From assembly GCA_029834535.1 (NCBI GenBank), contig JAQMWT010000119.1, positions 62,001 to 126,000 of the forward strand: a stretch of 64,000 nucleotides of DNA, written 5' to 3'. A program made the position numbers and the translations under genes. This document shows positions 11,712 through 64,000 of this stretch, piece by piece (within the stretch, counting starts at the first letter, position 1; every line of letters begins with the position of its first letter). The stretch comes from Chrysophaeum taylorii. Lineage: Eukaryota > Sar > Pelagophyceae > Pelagomonadales > Pelagomonadaceae. The notes beneath the pieces were generated by a model. That model saw only the letters and a program-made list of their open reading frames with translations. It was not told where the DNA came from and did not search any database.

Positions 11712-12782
11712 CTATCGCTGGGCTATTGCGCATCGAGGTACTGTCACGTTTCTTCGGGGGGAGGGAGCCGCGAGGGCTCGCCCTCGCTCCCAGCGGCACT
11801 GAGAGGTCGCCTTCTTGAACATCCCGACGATGCTGGCGTGTTCCACCCACATGAAGCGAGAGCAGTCAAGATTAACGGGCATCCACAGGCTCTTTCTAGA
11901 GCTAGAAAAGCAAGTCGTCGATGCCATAACCCGCCGAGGAATTCCCACTCGAAGACCAATCTGGTGATCTCTTGGCCGTCTTACTCCGGCGTGGAGCGGC
12001 CAACGAGCTGTGTTGGGTCGAGCTCGACGCTCTCGAGGCCTTCGGCCAGAAGCGCGTTTACCACCACCCGTCGTCCCGACGAGGCAGCGAACTTCAAGGT
12101 CGAGTCGACGTCGCGAGACAGAACCAGCCGACGATCCAGCAGGAGATGTTTCGAGCGCGGCACATGAATGCGGCGGCCAAAAACGTCGGAGCGGGCCTGC
12201 GACGAGTGATACTCCAGCCAGAAATGCGGACACGCTTGCCGCGAACCAACGCAACTAACCCAGGACCGCGGACGGCATTGTTGGGACGACGATGCTGTTG
12301 AGCTCACAGCACCTCCACCGCCGTCGTACAACTCCCACTTCCGAAATTCCCAGCAGGCTTCAAACCGGTATCTCGGCGAAGTGCATCGCCGCGCCGCCGA
12401 TGCTACCGCTGTTTGGTCCAGACACTGTCCGAGCCGCCGTCGAGTGCGAACACCACAACCGAACCCGGACTGAAGCTGCGACCCGGAAGCGTCGAGCAGA
12501 ACGAGTCGTCGAGTTCCGACAAGCTTGGTGCGAACGCACAGGCGGTCGCCGCCGCAAAAGGTTCGAGGATGGGCACATCATCGAGAGCTCCCCCGCTGCA
12601 GCCCCATTGTTGACCAGCACCGAGGTTGACAACCTCGCCCGCGACCCCCAGAGCTCATTGAGCGCTTCCAAGACGCACCCACCATGCATGTCGATTGACC
12701 ACAGTCGCTGGCTCCGTGGACTGGCCCCACGGCCTCCTTGGAGGAGGAGTCGTCGAGCTGCTCCACGGCACACGATGTTCAT
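11712..12782 (-). pseudogene. Decayed unknown gene
   Basis: Consecutive minus-strand segments in different frames look like one broken protein. They include SIDMHGGCVLEALNELWG near 12680, then VVNLGAGQQWGC, PSLSELDDSFCSTLPG and VVVFALDGGSDSVW (12613-12410), then IHVPRSKHLLLDRRLVL and SGRRVVVNALLAEGL (12190-11990). Frame changes and stops between them point to decay, or to several very short introns. No family is assigned. Confidence 0.3.
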
Positions 12783-12840
12783 TCATTCATTACCCTAAAT
12801 TGGACTTACGACGACGACGGGAAGTGTGCGGGGTAATCCG

Positions 12841-12868
12841 ATTCAATTCAATTCAATTCAATTCATTT
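12841..12868. repeat. (ATTCA)n short tandem repeat
   Basis: Five to six tandem ATTCA units lie about 30 bp upstream of the capping-enzyme start codon, in the presumed 5' leader or promoter. Confidence 0.85.
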
Positions 12869-12898
12869 CATTCAAGGGCTAGAGTCGCCGCTCCGAGG

Positions 12899-15800
12899 AT
12901 GGCGAGCCAGGATGGTGAGTACCAACGGCGAGAATGGCGGCGCGGTGGGGACGATCGGACGACGGGTGGACGCGGGCAGCAGCAGCGGCGGCAGCAAGTA
13001 TCATCACCACCAACAGCAACAACGAATAGTAGTAATTGGCGGTCATCATCGGGGCGAGACGAGTTTGTGGGGAAGACGTTGACCGCGAGGGTGACGACGG
13101 TGTCGACGAAGCCGCAGGGGGTGTTCGTGGAAGGCGACGGGTTCAAGGGTCGCGCGCTGGTGCGAGCGAGCAGCTCCGTAGTGGTGCGGTCGCTGCGAGA
13201 AGGCGAAAAGGTGCGAGTGGTCGTCACGGGCTCTGACAAGCAGGGCCGGCTGGACGCGAAGCTCGCGCCGGCGAAAACGCGGCGGGAGAGTCGCGGGGGT
13301 GGCGCCGCGAGCGGTCGGAAGCTCGTGATCCTCGACCTAAACGGCGTGCTGTGCGACCGCGGGCCTTACAAAGCCCGACGCGACGCGCTGGCGGTCCGGC
13401 CGCGCGCGATGGAGTTTTTGTCGCTGTGCTTCGAGCACTTTGACGTCGCGGTGTGGAGCTGCGGGAAGCGCGAGAACATGGAGATGTCGCTCTTCGACGG
13501 GCGGAGCCTCGTGTTCTCCTGGGACCAGTCAAAGTCGACGAGTCTGTGGCCGCGGACGTCGAGCGTCGCCGCGGGCAAGCCGCTCTTCCTCAAGGAGCTC
13601 TCCAAGGTGTGGGAGACGAGTTTCGACGAGGATGACGCGTGGCGACCGCGGCGGGTCCGGTACGCGCCGGGCGAGACCCTTCTCATCGACAATCACGACG
13701 AGAAGTTCGAGAAAAATCCCCCGGAGAACTGCGCGGTCGTGCCGACGTGGACGGGCGACGACGACGATTCCGCGCTCGGCGCGGGAAGCGAGATCGTCGC
13801 GCGACTCGCGAGGTTTGGGAATTTCGAGGCCCCAGGACAAGAAATAGAAGGCCACGAGAGTCCGGGGGAGCGGTTCGCGCGGCTGTTCTGCGCGTCTCCG
13901 ACCCACGCGCGCGCGGTTCCGGAATATCCGGCGTCGCGGTACGTCGAGCTCGCGGACTCGCCCGGGCCGCGGGCCAAGCCGCTGCGGCGGCGGGACTTGA
14001 GCGTGATCGGTTCGGAGCCGTTTTTGGTGGCGGAAAAGACCGACGGCGAGCGCGGGTGGTTCTTCCAGTGCGGCCTCGGGACCTTTCTCCTGCGACGCGA
14101 CCTCTCGGTCGCCGAGAAGCTGGGGGACGACGGCGACGACGACAAAGTCGCCATCCTCGACGGCGAGATGATTTCGGACCAGAAGCTGTTCGTGGCCTTC
14201 GACGCGGTGCGGTGCGACGGCGAGGACGTCGGCGCCGTCGAAACGGGGGGCGCCCTCGAGCGTCTCGCCCGGAGCCGCAAGCTTCTCGAGCGCGAGAAGA
14301 CGCGTCGGGATTGGACGATCGTCGCCAAAACCTACTGGCGGCCCTCGGCCCCCGACTTGGAAACCAAGATACGCCGCGTCCTCGAGACGGGCGAGTTTTC
14401 TGGAAAGGACCGCACCACAAAGTCCGACGGCCTGATATTTGCGCGCGCCCGCGACGTCGACGGCTACTATCGCGCCGTCTGCTTCAAGCACAAGCCTATC
14501 GTCACGATCGACTTCCGCCTCGCGGGATACCGTAGCGGCGCGGTCGACGCGGCCGTCGTCGACGGCGGCGTCGAGCACGTCGTCGCCTCGATCCGTCTCG
14601 ACCGGAAGTATCCGCGCCGAACGATCGTCGAGTGCGACTACCGCGACGGCGAGTGGCGCGTCCTCCGCGAGCGACCGGACAAGTCCAAACCAAACTCGCT
14701 CCGCGTCGCCTGGGCCGGCCTCGAGGCCCTCGCCGACCGCCTGACGGTCGAGGATATCGTTTCAGCCTTACGCCGAGGGGCCGACCTGCACGCCGCAAAC
14801 CACTACGACGCCCTCCAGAAGCGGCGCAACAACAGGAGATCCCTCGACGACGAAATGCACCGTCTCCGCCGCCTCAACAACCTCGTCAAGGCGCTCACGA
14901 TCGAGCGCTTCTTCTTCTTTAACGACCTCCGCCCGAGGCCAACGGAGGACGACGTTGAAGATGATGATGACAGGACCCCGCGCGTCCTCGCCGTGCTGCG
15001 CGAGCCGGCGACTCACGGCAAGCAGCAGCACCGCGGCCGACGCAAGCGGCCGGCGTCCATCCTCGAGCTCGGCTGCGGAAGGGGCGGCGACCTCGGCAAG
15101 TACGCCGCCAAGTTTGAGGTCGAGGCGCTCGTGGGCGTGGACGCGTCGGTCGAGGCGTTGAAGGAGGCAAAGCGCCGCTGGAACCACCACCACCACCACC
15201 ACCACCACCACCACAAGTCGTCGTCGTCGTCGTCGTCGTCTTCAAGGGGCGCGTTCCTGGCGGGCGACGTGGGCGACTCGGGGCTCTCGGAGCTCGTCGC
15301 TGCCGCCGCCGAATCCCTCGGCCGCCCGCGCGAGCAGTGGGCCGACCTCGTCGCGTGCCAGTTCGCGCTCCACTACGCGTGCGGCTCGAGAGACCGCCTC
15401 GGGGCGCTTTTTACCGCCGTCGCGCGGGCCCTCGAGCCGACCAACGGCGTCTTCGTCGCGACCGTCGTCGACTGGCGCGCGCTCCGCGACCTCCTCCGCA
15501 CCTCGGACCGCCGCGTTTCCACCCTCTGCTCGGTCGACGCCGACGACGCGACCCTCGACGCCCTCGAAGCGCTCTCTCCAGACGAGGACGCCGCTGCTGC
15601 CTTTGGGCTCCGCTATACGTTTTCGCTCGGCGACGCGGTCGAAGCCTGCGACGAGTTTGTCGTCCACGTACCCTCGGTCGCCGCTCTCGCCCGCGACTCG
15701 GGCCTCGACCTCCGCGCGGCCCTTCCCTTTCCGCGCTTGCTCGCTGCCGAGAACGATCGCGACCCGGCCGCCTTTGCCGCGCTCGCCGCGGATATCGGGG

Positions 15801-15910
15801 TGCGTCCAGCCCGCGACGACGACCCCCACCCCCCGCTCTCGGACGACCAATTCAAAGTCTCCAGCCTCTACCTCGCCCTCGCCTTCGTCAAACAGCAGCA
15901 GCCGCCATAG
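12899..15910 (+). CDS. Multifunctional mRNA capping enzyme: OB-fold, FCP1-like HAD, guanylyltransferase, cap N7-methyltransferase
   Basis: A 1003-residue frame from the ATG at 12899 (MASQDGEYQ); an upstream ATG at 12695 would read through the ATTCA repeat and is less likely. A low-complexity N-terminus is followed by an S1/OB-like strand region (GKTLTARVTTVSTKPQGVFV). An FCP1/NIF-type HAD domain begins at residue ~143 (VILDLNGVLCD; Asp146, with Asn148 where HADs usually have Asp). The guanylyltransferase follows: motif I EKTDGER with Lys380 as the GMP-accepting lysine, LDGEMI, KSDGLIF and FKHKPIVTIDF. The methyltransferase has ILELGCGRGGDLGKY (~721), VGVDAS, ACQFALHYACGS and a typical C-terminus. 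The protein would guanylylate and N7-methylate 5' ends of nuclear transcripts. No Cet1-type or Cys-phosphatase RNA triphosphatase is visible. A GTGAGT donor-like site at 12915 leaves open an unspliced intron near the start. Convergent with Nup96, 24 bp between stops. Confidence 0.9.
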   Translation: MASQDGEYQRREWRRGGDDRTTGGRGQQQRRQQVSSPPTATTNSSNWRSSSGRDEFVGKTLTARVTTVSTKPQGVFVEGDGFKGRALVRASSSVVVRSLREGEKVRVVVTGSDKQGRLDAKLAPAKTRRESRGGGAASGRKLVILDLNGVLCDRGPYKARRDALAVRPRAMEFLSLCFEHFDVAVWSCGKRENMEMSLFDGRSLVFSWDQSKSTSLWPRTSSVAAGKPLFLKELSKVWETSFDEDDAWRPRRVRYAPGETLLIDNHDEKFEKNPPENCAVVPTWTGDDDDSALGAGSEIVARLARFGNFEAPGQEIEGHESPGERFARLFCASPTHARAVPEYPASRYVELADSPGPRAKPLRRRDLSVIGSEPFLVAEKTDGERGWFFQCGLGTFLLRRDLSVAEKLGDDGDDDKVAILDGEMISDQKLFVAFDAVRCDGEDVGAVETGGALERLARSRKLLEREKTRRDWTIVAKTYWRPSAPDLETKIRRVLETGEFSGKDRTTKSDGLIFARARDVDGYYRAVCFKHKPIVTIDFRLAGYRSGAVDAAVVDGGVEHVVASIRLDRKYPRRTIVECDYRDGEWRVLRERPDKSKPNSLRVAWAGLEALADRLTVEDIVSALRRGADLHAANHYDALQKRRNNRRSLDDEMHRLRRLNNLVKALTIERFFFFNDLRPRPTEDDVEDDDDRTPRVLAVLREPATHGKQQHRGRRKRPASILELGCGRGGDLGKYAAKFEVEALVGVDASVEALKEAKRRWNHHHHHHHHHHKSSSSSSSSSRGAFLAGDVGDSGLSELVAAAAESLGRPREQWADLVACQFALHYACGSRDRLGALFTAVARALEPTNGVFVATVVDWRALRDLLRTSDRRVSTLCSVDADDATLDALEALSPDEDAAAAFGLRYTFSLGDAVEACDEFVVHVPSVAALARDSGLDLRAALPFPRLLAAENDRDPAAFAALAADIGVRPARDDDPHPPLSDDQFKVSSLYLALAFVKQQQPP
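15185..15244 (+). repeat. Coding (CAC)n and (TCG)n microsatellites
   Basis: Ten CAC codons (poly-His, residues 763-772) followed by a serine run from TCG/TCT codons interrupt the methyltransferase domain shortly after its SAM-binding motif. Confidence 0.95.
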
Positions 15911-34519: not shown

Positions 34520-37351
34520 TATTTCTAAATCTCCTCCTGATTATGAACAACATCCACCTCCCGCACCTTCACCCGACATTCCCTTCTCTGTTCACAGCAC
34601 CCCCAATGATGCGGCGCAGAGGGGGAATGCTATGCCTACCGACACCGACCATGAGTGGGGGGCTCCTTCTTCTGATCTCCATGCTCCTTCTCTGCTCCCG
34701 CATCTGCTCCAGCTGTTGCTCCTACACCCGCTACTTCCGCCACCACACCTACATCTGAAGTGTCTCCCGACACTCTGCCACTTTTACCACCTTATCGGTC
34801 TCTTTATTCCCAGGATGTCCTCCGTCTCACCCGTGGTCCTCATCACCCTCAGCCTCGTCGCAAAACCAATCTCAAGGATGTTCTCACTCGTATTGCTTCG
34901 CCTACTGTTGCCGCTTATAAACAAGCCGGTGGTACGCTCGCCGACTTGAAGTATGACCTCTCCAAGCAGTACATAACATTCTGCGACCCCACCCTCCACT
35001 CCCTTCATATCGCTCATGGCATCCACTGGACGGCTATACCTCCAGAGGGGGAATTTACACCATCCCTTCATCACCATGTGCACCAAGCGATTTCACAGTC
35101 CCCTTCAGTTATGTGTCATAGGAGCCATAGCCACCCATCGCCTGATGCTCCCCATGTCCACTTCTACGACGACGTCAACCTTGCCGATTTTCACCTTCCT
35201 CGAGCTCTCGTTCATTTAGTTTCTGAACATGCTCACGCCTTTCAAGTTCCTCCCGCTCAATATGCTTATGCTTTGTTCACGCCCCACTCCATTTTGGATC
35301 ATAATGACGCTTCTTATGGTGCTTCCGAGCCTCATCTCTCCGCCATCGAAGACTATATCACCGTGCAATCGCATTACATTGAAGCCCACCTTGGTGATGC
35401 TCCTCTACTAGTCGTTCAACTCATCGAAGATCCCGATCACGCTCATCTGCCCGATAATGTCGCTTCTTACGCAATTACGCATCTGACGAAGACTCATGAC
35501 CCCAGCACGGTTGGTTCGGACGAATACAAGATTCAAGCCAAAGATATCAAAATTGATGAATATGAATTGAACTGCCTCAAAGGTCTCTCAGACGCTGATC
35601 GCAAAGCTTATGTTGCTGCCATCTCTAAAGAGATTTTTGACATTGTTGAGTTTGGCTGCTTTAAACTAGCGTTGCCAATGGCCAACTCAAAGCCTATTGA
35701 CACCCGTCTCGTCCTACGTATAAAAACCAACGCTGCTGGTCAGTACATTGAACATAAAGCACGCCTGGTACTACGAGGATTCTTAGCCTCTCTGGGCACC
35801 GATTTCTTCAACACATTCAGCCCTATGGCACAGCTTACCGGCATCCGTTGTGTTTTGGCGCTAGCAGCTCATCTGCGACTTCCCGTCTATCATGTCGACG
35901 TCCCTAACGCTTTTGTTCAAGCTCCCATCGATTCGCATGTCTACGTTAAACTGCCACAAGGCATTTACCTTCTCGATCCCGAAGATACTAAATACCAAGG
36001 CCGCCGTCTCCCAAAGCTACTTAAATCTCTCTATGGATTGCGTCAGAGCCCTGCCCTTTGGAATCAAACCAAAAACTGCTTCTTTGATTCATTAGGTTAC
36101 ACACGATTTCGAACAGGTACATGCATTCACGCTAAAGTCCAAGCTGACGCTACATTTCTAATTTGCACGCTCTCAGTAGACGACGTCGTCATTACTTGTA
36201 CTTCGGAAACTCTACGTCGTGAGTTCCAACAAGCCCTGAAAAAGGAATACTCAGTCGACACCTTCGAGGAAGTCCATACTCTCCTAGGCATGCGCATAAC
36301 GCGTACAACAGATGGCTCTATATCACTGGATTGTCAGGCTAAACTTGACGCATTGTTCGAAGAGTACCCCATTTTAATGCAGTTACGTCCCACGTCTACA
36401 CCGATGTCACCATCAACCACGTATAAAACTGGAGAGCCATCATCTGATATGGACAATTTCATTCTTCATACCTTCTCTACGCTACTCGGCAAGCTCACGT
36501 TTGTTCAATTGGCCTGTCGCCCTGATTTATCCCAAAGCCTTAGTCGTTGCTCTCGAGGAATGCACAATCCAGCATTTCTGCATGTTCAAGTAATAACAGG
36601 AACGCTCCGCTACTTGCGTAAGCCCGAAAATCGTAATCTTCGCCTCTGGTACTACTCTGGTCCTTCCGCTCTAATGGACCATCTTCGACTTCTTATTGGT
36701 AATCGTACTGACATGGCCACCATGTTGGACCACACTAAAGAACAAGTTGATTCAGGTAATTTTGATCCACTGGTCGCATTCGTTGATGCCGATAATGCAC
36801 CTTCTTATGAACAAGACCGCAAATCTACAACAGGCTAGGCTATCTTTTTGTTTGGTTCTCTAATCACTTGGAAGTCTAAGCTACAGCCTATAACAGCTAC
36901 TTCTACGCATGAGAGTGAACTTATCGCCCTCAATATGTGAGCCGATGATGTGGTTTGGTTACGCAAATTGCTAACGGGAATGGCATTCGTTGTAAACCCT
37001 CACTTCTATCTCCGCCAACCTTCAGGGAAAGATCTGCGACTAGACTATGATGCTCACGACATTCCCCTCCCATTGGACATGTCGTCCATACGTAACAGTC
37101 CTATACTCGGAGATTCGGCCTCTGCTATTCATCTATCAAATAACCCCGACAGCGCGACTAAGGCTAAAGCTATCAGCACACGCTGGTTCCGTATACGTGA
37201 CTACGTACAGTTAAAACGAATCCGCCTACATCATGTTTCCGGTACCCATAATATCGCCGATGGATTTACCAAACCCTTTGGAGCTCCACTCTTCAGCAGA
37301 TTTCGCACGTTACTCGGCTTACAACAACCCATAGCTCAACAAGATGGTTAA
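34520..37351 (+). pseudogene. Copia-type reverse transcriptase and RNase H, decayed
   Basis: A Pro-rich segment, a frameshift near 34690, then an RT of Ty1/copia type: ARLVLRGFLASLGTDFFNTF, VYHVDVPNAFVQAPI, LPKLLKSLYGLRQSPALW and LSVDDVVITCTS (catalytic VDD), then LTFVQLACRPDLSQSL. RNase H follows with DADNAPSYEQDRKSTTG, LITWKSKLQ, THESELIALN, ILGDSASAIHLSNNP and HNIADGFTKPFG. In-frame TAG at 36836-36838 and TGA near 36940 interrupt it. I find no integrase motifs before the RT. Confidence 0.9.
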
Positions 37352-57193: not shown

Positions 57194-58138
57194 TTTCCAC
57201 GTCAGCGCTGCGACGCGCTCCGAGGAGACAGCACTCCGCTGGGTTGGTGGGCCCGCGCGACCACCGTTGCGTTGACGATTTTGACTGGCAGAGTCGCCGA
57301 CAAGCAGGCTAGACGCTCTGTGACGTGCTTACGCTCTCTGACTCACCTTCGCGCGCAGCCTCCGCCAGCACTCTCTCGCTGCATCTCGGCATCGACTAGT
57401 CCATAGCCTGCCACTTATCCCAGCCTCATCACACGCGAAGATCTGCACCGCAGCCCACCACTCGGCTATCTCATCACGCACGACCGGCAGACATCACCGT
57501 CACCTCGAAATGTCCGGCTCCAACGATGTCGCACCCAATCCCGCGGCCGACGCGACGCCGACCCGCTCGTGACATTCGCGGAATTCTCGCGCATCTGGCG
57601 CGCCGCCGACGACTTCAACGCCACCACTGACAGGACCGCCAACGCCCGCGCCTTTCGTCACTATTGTACCTGGCTTGGGAATCTTTTTCGCGGCGCTTTG
57701 TGCATCGTGCGCTTACCCGCCATTTCTTTCCCCTTCCATCCTCTGTCTTCCCTCTCCATCGGCATTCCACCACGTCCCCGGACGTCCCCGCGCCGCTGCG
57801 GGAGAGCAGGAGATCCCCGTGCGCTCCCCCGCCATCCCGGATTACAGACAGGAGCTCCACTTGGCTAGTGATCCACAGGACACTAGACAACGGCCCTCCC
57901 CAAATCACGCTAGTCAATCCTCTAAAGATTCTCGTGCGCATGAACAGACTCCAGACAGACTCGAGACCGACTCGAGACAGACGCGAGACAGACGCGAGAC
58001 AGACTCCGTCCCCTCATCCATCAGACAGACTCAAGTCAGACTCCAGACAGACAGCGATGTGGCGGCAACTCCCGCCTCCTACGGCTTACCCCTACTCTAG
58101 GGCCCCCCTTATCAGGGGCGCCCTACTCCGTTCTGATG

Positions 58139-58205
58139 ATGTCTTTAAATGTCGACTGCTAAGAGGGGGGGGTGTGTGTGGGGAGCATGAAGGATGTGGG
58201 TGGGT
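58139..58205 (+). repeat. 5'-block fragment of the Helitron-like family
   Basis: TTTAAATGTCGACTGCTAAG and the following G-rich block with GAGCATGAAGGATGTGGG are the same as after the microsatellite in the complete copies. The rest of the element is missing. Confidence 0.85.
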
Positions 58206-58516
58206 GATGATGTCAGTGTTCTCTATGACATCATCTTCCTTTTCCGCGACATGCGTCACCCTGATTTCTGTTTTTCGACATATCCTTGATCATAAAGCAA
58301 CAGCCGGTCCTCAAGTTGAGAGGACCAGGCACGGAAGTTGTTTGTGGTCGTGTGGCGGGAGAACGGCCATCCTCGTCCAGTGACCCCACCAAGGGCACGG
58401 ACGCGAGCGGCGAGCCAGGATTCGAAGGCACGCCAGGTAGCCCCTAAAATTCTCCTTACGCCACAGGTGGTGGAGGAATACGAGATTCGAGCGACTATAT
58501 CGGTCGCAGCGAACTA

Positions 58517-61353
58517 GTGCATCTTGCATTCTCTACACGGTCCGGACAAGCCGTGCGCGCCCTGATCAAGCGCGCCGACAAGGAATTCCAGAAGGACCAT
58601 TGCCGTGGGAAAGTCCCTTGGCCGGATACGTTAGTCGTCGGAAGTGACGACGCGCGATTCGGTGCTAACCGACGCGCAACCCGGGTACCGCTGCCGCAGG
58701 CGAGCGGAGTGAGATCGCAACTCACGGATAAGGCATTGATTGCCGGGCAGAGACGAATTCTGCCGCCCACCGGACTGATAGATTTGTCGGTGGAAGACGC
58801 ACGCAACGACGATATTACGCGTGTCGTGGACGATTAGAAGTTCCAGAGTCGAAGGAGCACGAGAACGACGATGACTCAATTATTTTGGACCCGCTCTGAT
58901 CTCGGCCGACTAGAACGAGCCAGAGCCGATATGGAAGACGATGATGCTGCCGTCGAGCAGCTACGATATGACGAACCGCCAAGCCGTCAGGATGAGACGA
59001 GCGAGGGGAACGATGACGATGATACTGATTATGATGATGAGGAAGAAGAGCTGAACTACTACGGCGATGAACTGCCGAGGGCGCCGCCGACGAGACAACC
59101 GGCCGCCCATCCAGAACGTGCGCGAGGTGATGAACCACCGAATGCTGCAAAGATTTACAAAGCCCAGTTACGCGAGATACGCCGAGAAAATAAGCGCGCA
59201 CAAGAAATCCTCACCCAGCTGATAGTAGAAGAGATACGGCGTGAATCGATACACCGGAATGAGATAAAAATAATGCAAGAGCAACTGCGTAGGGCCAACG
59301 CTCGAGCAGACGCCTTCCAAGATCAAGTAAGCTCGTTGACACGTGAAAGAGATGAATTGCGTACGCCGAGTCGCCCGAGGCGAGCGAGCAGTCTCGAGGG
59401 AGAATTCCGACCCTCGGAGGTACCGCCGCCCACGCGAACGCGAGCGAAAGTTAGGAAGCCGCGCGACAACGACGACGAGTCGTCCGAGATGACCGAAACG
59501 TCGTTATACTACGAGCAAGAGCAATCCAAGTCAAAGGAGCTCACCCAAACCAAAATCCCCACAGAATCGGAGAATCTGACCGAAACGTCGTTAAACTACG
59601 GGCCGAAGCCGACAACCGCTTCTATCCCGGCGTCACCGTTGGTGGCACGATAAAATTTGTCGTCAGCTGACACAACCCTCGGTTTTGACGACGCGCCGGA
59701 GTTATGTGTGAATCCGATTTACGAGCCCCGTGCAGCCGATGACGCCCAAAGTAAGGGACCCGCCGCTGCTACGCTCGATGCTATGAGTTTACCTCCGGAC
59801 ATTCAAGTGGATGGCACTTCGTCTCCACGATCGATCGACGATGCGTCGCAGAGGATTACCTCGAATGATAAGCGCGCACCTGAGTACACACCCATCGAAC
59901 GTCACGTGCCCTTTGGTGGCCATTTCTTGACAGATATGACGTCGGGGACGACGCCTTCTTCTTTTGCAGGCCCCCCCGACGAACCGATTACAGACGTTTT
60001 TGCAGACGTTAGTGCAGATGTTTTATTCCCTTTGACGATGGCATACGTTTCGTGTGCCGACATTTTTAGTGACAAGGGGATTGCCGATATTCTAAGCGAT
60101 GGAGTGGATGATAGGCCGAGTGAAACGGCCGAGAAAATGAATACGAAAGCGGAAGAGGTGAAGAATCTTATAACGCATGAACTGCCTTTGGAGCTCAGTG
60201 AAAGCCCTGGCGTATTACTCACGAACGAAGAGTTCAAAGATTTTCAGCCTGCATATGATGATGGCTACGCGATAATAAAAGATCCCGAACATACTATGAG
60301 GGATGAGTATAGCTGCCGCCCGGAATCGAATTTGGATGGGACGATCAGCATGGATAAGAGGAAGATGAGCGTACCGACGGTATGGATACGAGCTCACTGT
60401 TTCCTGAGGAAGAAACCGCCAGAGCGGAAAGAAGTGCGATTCCGACCCCGAGGCATGGATTTATTCGCCAACGGAGAGTTAATTTACGTTTGGTCGGAGT
60501 TTTGGCAAGAAGACGACGCATGTGTCGATGTTTCGATAGATGAGACGATTGAGACAGTTCGGATAGGCTTGGGAGCACCAGTCGCCTACAGGGACGATCC
60601 AGAGGTACTAGGACCTGCCGAACTGACGCCAGAGAGAGACAAAGATAACAAGAGCCCCAGTCGAAGTTCGCGCCGGCACAGACGACGCCGATCGCGCGAC
60701 GACGAATACGACGGAGGCCGACACCAATATAATTTGGGTTTTTTGAGCGCTACGCTCGCGTTTACGACCCCTTGCGGTCAACAGTTACCATTAGGAGTGA
60801 TGGTGTACCCGAACACGGACACCCGCCCCGACGACGCAGCCGACGCCCTTGCCGCGGCCGCATTCGAAGATCGTGCTCGCCCGCCGCCGGACGAGCCACC
60901 CAACGAAGTGCTGTCCGATCGTCGGTCTTTGGCACAGATTTATGAGCAGATGTCGAGCGATGAGCTCGAAGATTCGAGCGAGGAACTTGAAGCTCCACGA
61001 TACTGGGAAGGCGATTCAGATTTGGAAGATGAAGAAGCTACACCTTGTGAACCAGTGTCCGCGATAACGTTATTTGACGAGTCGTCCACGGACGACCCAC
61101 CGTTTATTTTTGACGAGGAAGCCTCGATGCCATCGGCTTATCTTTGGACCCTCCAGAGACGACCGTTGGCGACCGAACTGGCTGTGAGCCAGACATGGAT
61201 TTCTGCAGTGATAGCTCGTGCGCTCATTCGACGGACGAGACGATGACCATCGCGTGTAATGCAGACGACGATCTTACGATAGAGTTGACGTCGGGGACGA
61301 CGCCATCTTTTCCTGCGGACCCCCCCGAAACGGTTTCGGTTACTACGGATTGA
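58517..61353 (+). pseudogene. N-terminal (gag-position) part of a retroelement-like polyprotein
   Basis: One frame runs from about 58517 to 61246 with in-frame TAG (58835) and TAA (59651). It then shifts by one base near 61140 and meets a TGA at 61351. No ATG restarts it after the stops, so it was one ORF. Contents: a basic region, an acidic run, a coiled coil (REIRRENKRAQEILTQ, then EEIRRESIHRNEIKIM), repeated Thr/Ser/Glu-rich segments, and a globular part (WIRAHCFLRKKPPERKEV, ELIYVWSEFWQEDD). TSGTTPSSFAGPPDEP near 59940 and TSGTTPSFPADPPETV near 61290 are an internal repeat. GC content is lower than in host genes. No zinc knuckle is seen. Confidence 0.6.
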
Positions 61354-64000
61354 GCCACGTATACGCCGCCGGAAGAAAAGGATAGATTTAAGAAGACGAT
61401 TAGCAGCGTTCTCAAGTGGGACGAAGACGAGCCGACGTCGAACCTGCAGGATTGGTGGACGAAAACTCAGAATTTCTTGTTAAAGAAGCCACCAGAACAA
61501 CCGCTCAGCGACGGAGTCAAAGCCGCAGCCGACACGGAACCGATCGCCGATGATGATGAAGATCAACCGGCGACGAATGAATTCACAGATGCATTCTGGA
61601 ACGACGAAATGAATGATTTAAGGGAGGGGTCGTTTGCTTCCAAGAACTACGAAGACCAGGATCCCCTACCAGCGTTGATTCCCTCCGAGATTGTCTTGGA
61701 GGAAGAGCGGAAGCCGCCAGATAAAGAGGCTGACGCGAGCGTTATGGCGAAGACGCCAACAACAGATGATACGAAAGCTCAAGCCGCGGTATCGATTCCC
61801 AACCCCGGAGATGAGCGAGTCAGAGCCCGGTGTGCTCACACTTCGTTGACGCCGCGAGATGGCAAGACGATAGAAGATGATTTGGTTCCCCTCAGTTGTT
61901 TAGATACGGGTACTCTAACGTTTATAGCCTGTCATATCTACAGGAATCGTGACGGACCGAAATTCTCGACGACCATCGGTGTCGATGGAATGGCAGATGC
62001 TTCTTATATTTGCCGAGAAATGGTCAGAAAATTGGCCAAAGATCAGTTGATTTTCGCTGAAGGCGAACTTCCGATTAAGCGCAAGCTGTACGGATCAGGG
62101 TTGAATACGACGACGATCTATCGTTGGATCGCCATTCGGGTCGCCCTCGCCGACGACTTCGCTGCCCCCATTGTCGCTATTGTAGCCGATACGAACTATC
62201 TGTTCCTGTTGGAAGGGCGCGATATACGAGTTTTAGGCGCCATTGTGGACTATCCCCACGATCGGATCTGTTTTTATCGAACCCAAGTCGTCTACGGACG
62301 CAAGAAGATTAAAGTTAAGGATGAACGAGTCGATGCACCCATCGTGACCTTTCGATCTATTTACGATCGAGATCCGATAACCGTGCCGATTTACAATCAT
62401 CAACACGATGCCTTTCGGAAGAGTCTCGACCTAGTCAAGACTCGAGTTTACGCTCGTTTGAGCACGATTAAAGACCTCCGAAGCCCGCCGCCGGAACGAA
62501 CGGTAGCCTTGGCTACGCGGGGGCATGCCACGACCAAATTCTCCCCAGCTCCGGGAGAAGCCGCGCAGGAAGTAGTCGCTTACGCTGCGCGCACGCTTCA
62601 AATCGAGCCCGGTCGAACTTACAATCTACCGGTTATTTTGTCGAAGCCTATGGAAATGGGACAGGTTTTCGTCGCTACGTTTGCTGAGAACGAGCAGATG
62701 GGCGTTGTCGAAGGAATGTGTTCTTCTTGCGAAGAGCACGACCGATCCGCTGCTCGGGTGGCGGTTACTGCCACGGAAGAAGTGCCGACGGTCGTCACTC
62801 AAGGCGAAGTCCTTGCGATTGGAAGTATCGTTAGGTACGAAGACGAGTTGAACGTCTCTACGATCAACGAACTTATGAAAGAATGTGAAGAAGGATACGA
62901 CAAGGGGAACCTTCCTTTCACCGTTTCTGTCGCTAGTCACTTGACGCGATGCGACGCATCTCCCCCGCCGATGCTGCTGAGCACGGTGCAGAAGGACGCT
63001 ACGACCGCTATGGCGGACAAGTCCACCCTCAAACGACCTGAAGGCAGCGACGATTTCGCTCGAAGGTCAGAAGAAGATGAAAAGAAATGCCGCGAGATCA
63101 CCGAAGCGGAGATCGGCCGCCGATATGAAAAGGTTCAATGGCTTCCAATCGCTTATCGCAAGGTGGTGATGCTGTTCAGTGGAGCCGGAGGCAGTACTTT
63201 AGGTCTCCAACGAGCCCACGAAACGTGTGGGACGTCGTTTCGAGTCGTGCTAGCACTCGATGCGTCGGACACCGCCAACCAGATCCACCATAAGAATTTT
63301 CCGAACATTCCTGTGGTGCAGCACACACTGTGTGGTCGCTATGTTACAACCTTACGGTTGATCGAATCTTATTTACCCTACGCGGAATGGTCGTCGTCGA
63401 TGTGTATCGCGTCGCCACCCTGCGTACACTCCGCTCTGTGCAACTTGACCTCCAGAGATGTTGGGGAAGGAGTCACCGCTACCCACTGGACGATGAAATT
63501 ATGCAAGGTGGCTGGTTTCTTCATGTGGCTGATAGAGCAGGAGGCTTCGATTATTTCTTACGTTGCACGTTTGCACCCGTACGTATACGTCGTCAATTTT
63601 TACGACATAACTCCTAGTTTGATGAGCTGTCGCGTGCGATTGTTGGTTTCGAGCCATCCGCTCCATTTGCGCGCAGTTCCAAAGACTGGCAAGAATATGC
63701 AACAAGAGTTCGCCGCTGCGCTTGGCTACGCCGACGAACGACATTTACTTCAGATGAACAATTTAGGATCATCACGAGCCGCGACAGACGCAGCTTATAC
63801 TGTTACGCGTGTCCCGCTTCGCGTAGGACCGCACCGTTCCGATTACAGATCTCTGAATCTGGAAATGACTTCGGAGTTGCTGACGATGTCCCCTGATTTT
63901 GATTGGGCCGGCTTCTCCAGGACGACCTCGTTGAAACACTTGGCGTCCGTCGTGCCACCTGACACGATGGCCTTATTAGTGCTCGATCTGCACAGCTCTG
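61354..64000 (+). CDS. Retropepsin-like domain plus C5 cytosine DNA methyltransferase (continues beyond window)
   Basis: 882 codons open to the right edge, in the frame reached after the upstream shift; the TGA at 61351 precedes it. At ~61960-62290 the order SYICREMVRKL ... LLEGRDIRVLGAIVDYP resembles gypsy-type retropepsins (LLGRDfLxxxGAxIDy), although the active site reads VDGMADAS rather than a clear D-S/T-G. From ~63160 there are C5-methyltransferase motifs in order: I VVMLFSGAGGSTLGLQRA; II ALDASDTANQIHHKNFP; IV CIASPPCVHSALCNLTSRD with the catalytic PPC cysteine (codon at 63421); a VI-like VYVVNFYD where ENV is usual; VIII-like MSCRVRLLV. The enzyme would methylate cytosine in DNA. RT, RNase H and integrase are expected downstream but are not visible here. 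Confidence 0.75.

Follow-up and report, generated by a model that had tools for sequence, protein, structure and literature searches.

Gypsy-type and copia-type LTR retrotransposons with cytosine-methyltransferase-like domains in the pelagophyte Chrysophaeum taylorii

The stretch of the Chrysophaeum taylorii genome analyzed here (hereafter, the window: 64,000 nucleotides, bases 62001–126000 of contig C119) contains the left part of a decayed Ty3/gypsy-type LTR retrotransposon that very probably carries a captured, divergent C5-cytosine-methyltransferase (C5-MTase) domain between its protease and its reverse transcriptase (RT). Scored copies of the element number far more than a hundred, a lower bound, and a second, copia-type element in the same genome carries a different domain of this kind. 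Retrotransposons that bear a DNA methyltransferase (DNMT) are already known; new here is their occurrence in a stramenopile, where a single genome has both a gypsy and a copia case.

Structure and copies of the gypsy-type element

Coordinates of the element are in window numbering, and positions above 64000 lie on the same contig past the window end. The genome searched comprises 70.8 Mb in 697 contigs; the genome paper, which reports Nanopore and PacBio reads for C. taylorii NIES-1699, describes 71 Mb in 702 contigs, and its main text, in the portion accessible to us, contains no words beginning with ‘transpos’ or ‘repeat’ (PMC10366177). The whole element occupies 58058–68903 on the forward strand, delimited by LTRs and by the target-site duplication AGCGA, the five bases directly outside the outer LTR ends (58053–58057 on the left and, past the window, 68904–68908 on the right). 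The 5′ LTR (58058–58465, forward strand; TGTGGCG...CGCCACA, with TG..CA ends) includes an insertion of ~62 bp that matches another repeat in the window, the LTR elsewhere being ~337 bp long, as is the 3′ LTR at 68072–68408, past the window. At the right end (68072–68903), this LTR is followed by a copy of part of the left flank and then by another LTR, which ends at 68903; the integration site carries a tandem duplication. An ankyrin-repeat frame (13 PF00023 stretches) lies at this end of the element (C119:130879–132585, equivalent to L010:880–2586). A candidate primer-binding site, TGGTGGAGGAATACGAGA, lies 2 bases past the 5′ LTR; a genome pattern for the matching tRNA end returned 0 matches and is uninformative, one of its bases having been fitted to the T-loop rather than taken from the element.

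The internal region begins with a gag-like stretch (58838–61243, forward strand), whose 59423–61123 portion is 89% identical to the open frame of another copy, L031. The coiled coil proposed there in the original prediction, which was made from the window sequence alone, finds some backing in a weak Tropomyosin match (E 0.0013), but that match is below cut-off. An open frame with protease-like and DNMT-like domains follows on the same strand at 61354–64000 and runs on to 64281 (882 aa over 61354–63999; 976 aa up to 64281). Its retropepsin-like stretch (61948–62260, forward strand, right end approximate) is recognized by reading and runs VDGMADASYI ... LGAIVDYPHDRICF. The protease proposed in this frame gives no Pfam match in the window copy, and the active-site triplet (window position 61981) is D-G-M rather than the retropepsin D-S/T-G in all seven gypsy copies read. 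The C5-MTase-like domain spans 63160–63966 on the forward strand. Past the window lie the C-terminal part of the RT with RNase H (64948–66519; PF00078 E 3.4e-11, PF17917 E 3.2e-26) and a broken integrase (66895–68028; Integrase_p58_C E 1.5e-6, with a partial rve match below cut-off).

These features place the element with Ty3/gypsy. An RVT_1-type RT is joined to a gypsy-type RNase H (RT_RNaseH) in the window copy, L031, and L035; in the latter two, Integrase_H2C2 and rve follow RNase H, the integrase domains scoring over cut-off; and LTRs with TG..CA ends are accompanied by a short target duplication. We are virtually certain of this anatomy, and it bears out the original description of a retroelement polyprotein, for which RT, RNase H, and integrase were to be sought beyond position 64000. 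A shared frame was to be sought as well, and this holds for L031 (contig C5), where the gag-like, protease-like, DNMT, RT, RNase H, and integrase regions form a single open frame (2860 aa within the stretch read, 3063 aa as reported by the search), but not for the window copy, which is broken in a poly-C tract near 64.26 kb. Of the seven copies, five can be compared at this tract between DNMT and RT: four keep the frame there, and the window copy does not. The window copy shows further decay: in-frame stops occur at 59651–59653 and immediately upstream of 61354, the frame changes near 61.1 kb, and the integrase contains stops.

The mapping of related copies and LTRs that had been proposed shows how widespread the element is. 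Searching the genome with the gypsy DNMT returned at least 138 matches (138 of 977 candidates scored), 111 of the 138 without stops, and a DNMT query from a second subfamily returned at least 150 (150 of 922 scored), which overlap those of the first query; at least 42 matches were found for the LTR (40 of 475 candidates scored). A third DNMT subfamily, considered on the basis of L015, was rejected, its pieces resembling a decayed copy of the second subfamily.

The methyltransferase-like domain and its selection

Reading the window domain identifies motifs I, II, IV, VIII-like (CRVR), IX, and X, the first four of which had been claimed originally. On the forward strand, motif I lies at 63163–63210 (LFSGAGG), the PPC of motif IV at 63415–63423 (SPPC), a motif VI-like WLIEQEAS at 63526–63549, the motif VIII-like SCRVR within 63616–63645, motif IX at 63841–63876, and motif X at 63922–63972. 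The corresponding Pfam search succeeded in part: all seven gypsy copies tested match PF00145 at E ≤ 0.1 (best E 1.6e-6), but the window copy scores 17.9 bits over the whole frame and 20.7 over the domain, under the curated cut-off of 22 bits, as do the long frames of L031 (18.4 bits) and L035 (20.7 bits).

Profile–profile comparison gives a clearer result. A profile of the seven gypsy copies matches a profile of 22 DNMT2 proteins at 97.0% (E 7.9e-11, 74 columns), DNMT2 being the best-scoring profile for the N-terminal half of the domain (motifs I–IV), and matches six phage C5-MTases at 95.4% over residues 61–331 of 342, whereas the best of 60 column-shuffled controls reach 1.1% (DNMT2) and 1.6% (phage). 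Because scores of 95–97% stand against at most 1.6% in the controls, the domain very probably belongs to the C5-MTase family, in agreement with the original claim.

The putative catalytic residues (the Cys of motif IV, the Glu of motif VI, and the Arg-x-Arg of motif VIII) are kept in all seven copies. There are departures from consensus in motif IV (PCV for PCQ), motif VI (EQE for ENV), and motif X (AS for GN), and also in motif VIII. The alignment to phage C5-MTases puts motif VI at a different site, without Glu; we favor WLIEQEA, judging by its distance from motif VIII and by a weak fold model in which a strand ends there. That model, the only one above noise and made with DNMT2 rows as the alignment, leans to the DNMT2 fold (pLDDT 54, pTM 0.54); a single-sequence model is poor (pLDDT 36.5), and Foldseek with it found 0 matches at E ≤ 0.001.

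The domain’s place within the family is harder to define. Its SPPC is common to all 26 DNMT2 rows aligned, and the best two PDB matches of its profile are DNMT2, at non-significant E-values (0.066 and 0.071), but in place of the DNMT2 signatures PPCQPxTR and CFT the domain has PPCVHSAL and AYT. Motif I, FSGAGG, is in our estimation unlike that of DNMT3. The tree that had been called for, with 38 rows, puts the gypsy and copia DNMTs outside DNMT2 on very long branches (supports 44/40 and 81/85) but in no supported place; it includes one DNMT5-like protein and omits DNMT1, DNMT3, and DNMT6, and from such a tree we could assign neither domain to a named class. Searches of 5.8 billion proteins, covering those 0.55–1.75 times the query length that share words with the query, gave no match at E ≤ 1e-3 among 2569 candidates for the gypsy region or 3967 for the copia region. 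No DNMT homologue was confirmed in the viral contigs scanned, and a phage collection yielded weak matches to the gypsy domain in six records (best E 0.3).

The gypsy DNMT domain is under purifying selection. Between the two old subfamilies its Ka/Ks is 0.036–0.062 in all ten pairs (five first-type by two second-type copies), values that are rough since Ks, at ~1.8–2.8, is near saturation. The corresponding ratios are 0.025–0.055 for RT–RNase H in the five pairs with L033 and 0.067–0.079 in the two of five computable with L034, 0.055–0.065 for integrase (two of four pairs computable), and 0.116–0.177 for the protease region (eight pairs). The DNMT values fall among those of RT and integrase, as far as the latter are computable, and are lower than those of the protease region. 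Comparisons inside the first subfamily give noisier and higher ratios, 0.11–0.31 for the DNMT and 0.18–0.94 for RT–RNase H (10 pairs each), the high RT–RNase H values coming from pairs with L032 and from one pair with only 4 changes. We are confident that the domain has a selected function in the element.

A copia-type element with a different domain

A search of the genome with PF00145 gave 57 matches, comprising two host genes and 55 others, and all 21 further loci read among these 55 (L006, L011–L030) encode a DNMT different from the gypsy one. Their assignment to copia comes from RVT_2 matches in L020 and L029, in the RT frames scanned, and, for 11 of the 20 loci L011–L030, from an RT active-site motif. 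This motif reads VDG in L020 (L020:8346) and VDD in the ten other copies that have it. The copia polyprotein (L020:2787–8642) runs from a protease-like stretch (LIDGGAS, by reading) through the DNMT and an integrase (rve, below cut-off) to the RT, and its DNMT finds at least 152 matches in the genome (150 of 649 candidates scored). The protease triplet is D-G-G in nine of 11 aligned copies, the remaining two not covering the site; unusual triplets thus occur in both DNMT-bearing elements, D-G-M in gypsy and D-G-G in copia, compared with D-S/T-G.

The copia DNMT keeps PCQ and VEN in all eight aligned copies and has a degenerate motif I. Its profile score against phage C5-MTases is 93.9%, with shuffled controls reaching 3.5% at most; its similarity to the DNMT2 profile (70.5%) is not relied on, since one shuffled control reached 31.6%. 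Its median Ka/Ks is 0.128 (range 0.081–0.823; 66 pairs from 12 copies), alongside 0.093 for the integrase (66 pairs) and ~0.14 for the RT (30 pairs, approximate because of one undefined value). Compared directly, the gypsy and copia DNMT profiles show no similarity (0.7%), which suggests two captures in one genome; both alignments are very shallow, and the comparison is hence no proof.

Another copia-type RT lies within the window at 34676–36835 on the forward strand (RVT_2 E 2.5e-40), 33% identical to that of the DNMT-bearing copia element. Searching the window with both polyproteins detected no DNMT near it. This suggests that an element of C. taylorii can retrotranspose without one. The window also contains, at 12662–15907 on the forward strand, one open frame combining mRNA cap (guanine-N7)-methyltransferase, capping-enzyme C-terminal, and NIF-phosphatase domains.

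CpG content, possible functions, and known elements

The original prediction held that an independent algal case would suggest that such elements place CpG methylation on their own copies or make use of it, and the gypsy copies lend this no support. Their CpG observed/expected ratio is 1.17–1.42 in four copies (window blocks, 0.96–1.44), and pairwise comparison of five copies gives transitions of 548/5980 (0.092) for CpG and 411/4438 (0.093) for GpC. We found in them no CpG depletion and no excess of CpG over GpC transitions, and on both counts reject a heritable CpG methylation footprint; CpG self-writing by the gypsy element is unsupported, since its copies bear no mutational sign of it. In the copia copies the ratio is 1.00–1.09, below the three host genes measured (1.37–1.47) and like the low-CpG window blocks (0.96–1.06), and TpG/CpA is raised (1.10–1.18). 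Across seven copies, transitions are 2083/12561 for CpG and 1630/12455 for GpC (0.166 vs 0.131). There may be a mild CpG-methylation effect here, but the signal is ambiguous because transversions are raised together with transitions (0.0825 for CpG vs 0.0683 for GpC).

A plausible selected function of the gypsy domain, which we put forward tentatively and as somewhat short of probable, is methylation of cDNA. The domain would be made as part of Gag-Pol, travel with the replication complex, and methylate the element’s own new nucleic acid, most likely cDNA before integration, and the methylation would shield that nucleic acid from host sensing or silencing. The mark may lie outside the CpG context or be lost after integration, a proposal we make because the gypsy copies have no CpG decay. 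De Mendoza et al. propose cDNA methylation before integration for DIRS elements (PMC5890265).

Could the domain instead come from a host DNMT gene that has a retroelement inserted next to it, or resemble a DNMT by chance? Taken alone, the window copy, being under the Pfam cut-off, would allow this. The copies read already refute it, and we give it practically no credence: DNMT and RT share one open frame in L031 and L035, and of the 107 RT matches scored (at least 107, from 1266 candidates), 58 are preceded on the same strand by a listed DNMT match, in 56 cases 1650–1850 bases upstream. Adding 53 further DNMT places supplied an upstream DNMT for six more. The remaining 43, two of them too near a contig start, have none among the places compared and may or may not be DNMT-less elements, the lists being lower bounds. 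Two host DNMT genes were found, both separate from the elements: L001 (contig C634), a DNMT2, and L002, a DNMT5-like gene that matches, at E 8.5e-130, part of a 2348-aa protein filed in the PDB as Rad8, which we take to be fungal DNMT5. In the related pelagophyte Aureococcus, DNMT5 goes with a methylation landscape (PMC9998398). The original prediction was to be overturned by an intron-bearing host DNMT gene lacking retroelement enzymes, or by an HMM search that does not back a C5-DNMT; neither outcome was obtained, although for the window copy alone the HMM score is under the cut-off.

The substrate could also be RNA. DNMT2 methylates tRNA, and LTR elements depend on a tRNA primer, so that the gypsy domain might methylate genomic RNA or the primer rather than DNA. 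The profile score and PDB matches that put DNMT2 at the top, the shared SPPC, and the lack of a CpG mutation footprint in the gypsy copies are consistent with this, but the altered signatures, the tree, in which no placement within or beside DNMT2 is supported (44/40), and the phage DNA C5-MTase match, which spans more of the domain, count against it, and we consider it unlikely. A fuller version, in which gypsy and copia each captured a different C5-MTase in an equivalent position directly behind the protease and the gypsy one derives from a DNMT2-like RNA methyltransferase and has the tRNA primer or the element’s RNA as its substrate, seems to us more doubtful still; if it were true, RNA methylation would be part of the retrotransposition cycle. 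About as improbable as RNA methylation in general is a pseudoenzyme, in which the C5-MTase fold would serve the polyprotein as a structural or nucleic-acid-binding module without catalysis. The departures in motifs IV, VI, VIII, and X and the lack of a clear mutation footprint of methylation would fit a pseudoenzyme; against it, the gypsy copies retain Cys, Glu, and Arg-x-Arg across a Ks of ~2, seven out of seven, and the copia copies their PCQ and VEN, eight out of eight. Methylation of cDNA by the gypsy domain remains the function we favor.

The known DNMT-bearing retrotransposons, as far as the accessible portions of the literature describe them, are LINE and DIRS elements in dinoflagellates and a Gypsy element in Klebsormidium (PMC5890265), and according to a 2025 paper Copia and DIRS elements had been reported before (PMC12344493). 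Closest in form is KnitGypsy-Dnmt3 of Klebsormidium nitens, likewise an LTR Gypsy with a DNMT in its Pol polyprotein, intronless copies, and purifying selection on the DNMT; it differs in having a Dnmt3-family DNMT, a DIRS-like repeat arrangement, and a charophyte host (PMC5890265). By comparison, the C. taylorii element has ordinary LTRs, a 5-bp target duplication, a stramenopile host, and a divergent DNMT of no nameable class in a tree without DNMT3. SymbioLINE-Dnmt and SymbioDIRS-Dnmt3 of dinoflagellates, described in the same paper, resemble it in their many DNMT copies and purifying selection, and SymbioLINE in carrying an orphan DNMT lineage, whereas their element classes are LINE and DIRS and SymbioLINE copies are reported as CpG-depleted, unlike the C. 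taylorii gypsy copies (PMC5890265). Set beside DNMT2, the tRNA (cytosine38-C5)-methyltransferase, the gypsy DNMT scores best over motifs I–IV and differs in the two signatures; the tree gives it no supported place. No report of a DNMT retrotransposon in a pelagophyte or other stramenopile was found in the accessible portions of the open-licence literature, including PMC9998398, PMC5348765, and PMC6338049, and the independent algal case foreseen in the original prediction thus falls outside the published cases found.

DNMTs are the enzyme type that usually silences retroelements. With the present elements, the range of DNMT-bearing retrotransposons comes to include a stramenopile whose genome measures 71 Mb; they suggest two captures, by two LTR superfamilies in one host, with both domains under selection. 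That the gypsy copies lack CpG decay speaks against heritable CpG self-methylation as the general reason for capture, and the question that these elements open is why retrotransposons repeatedly take up the type of enzyme that usually silences them.
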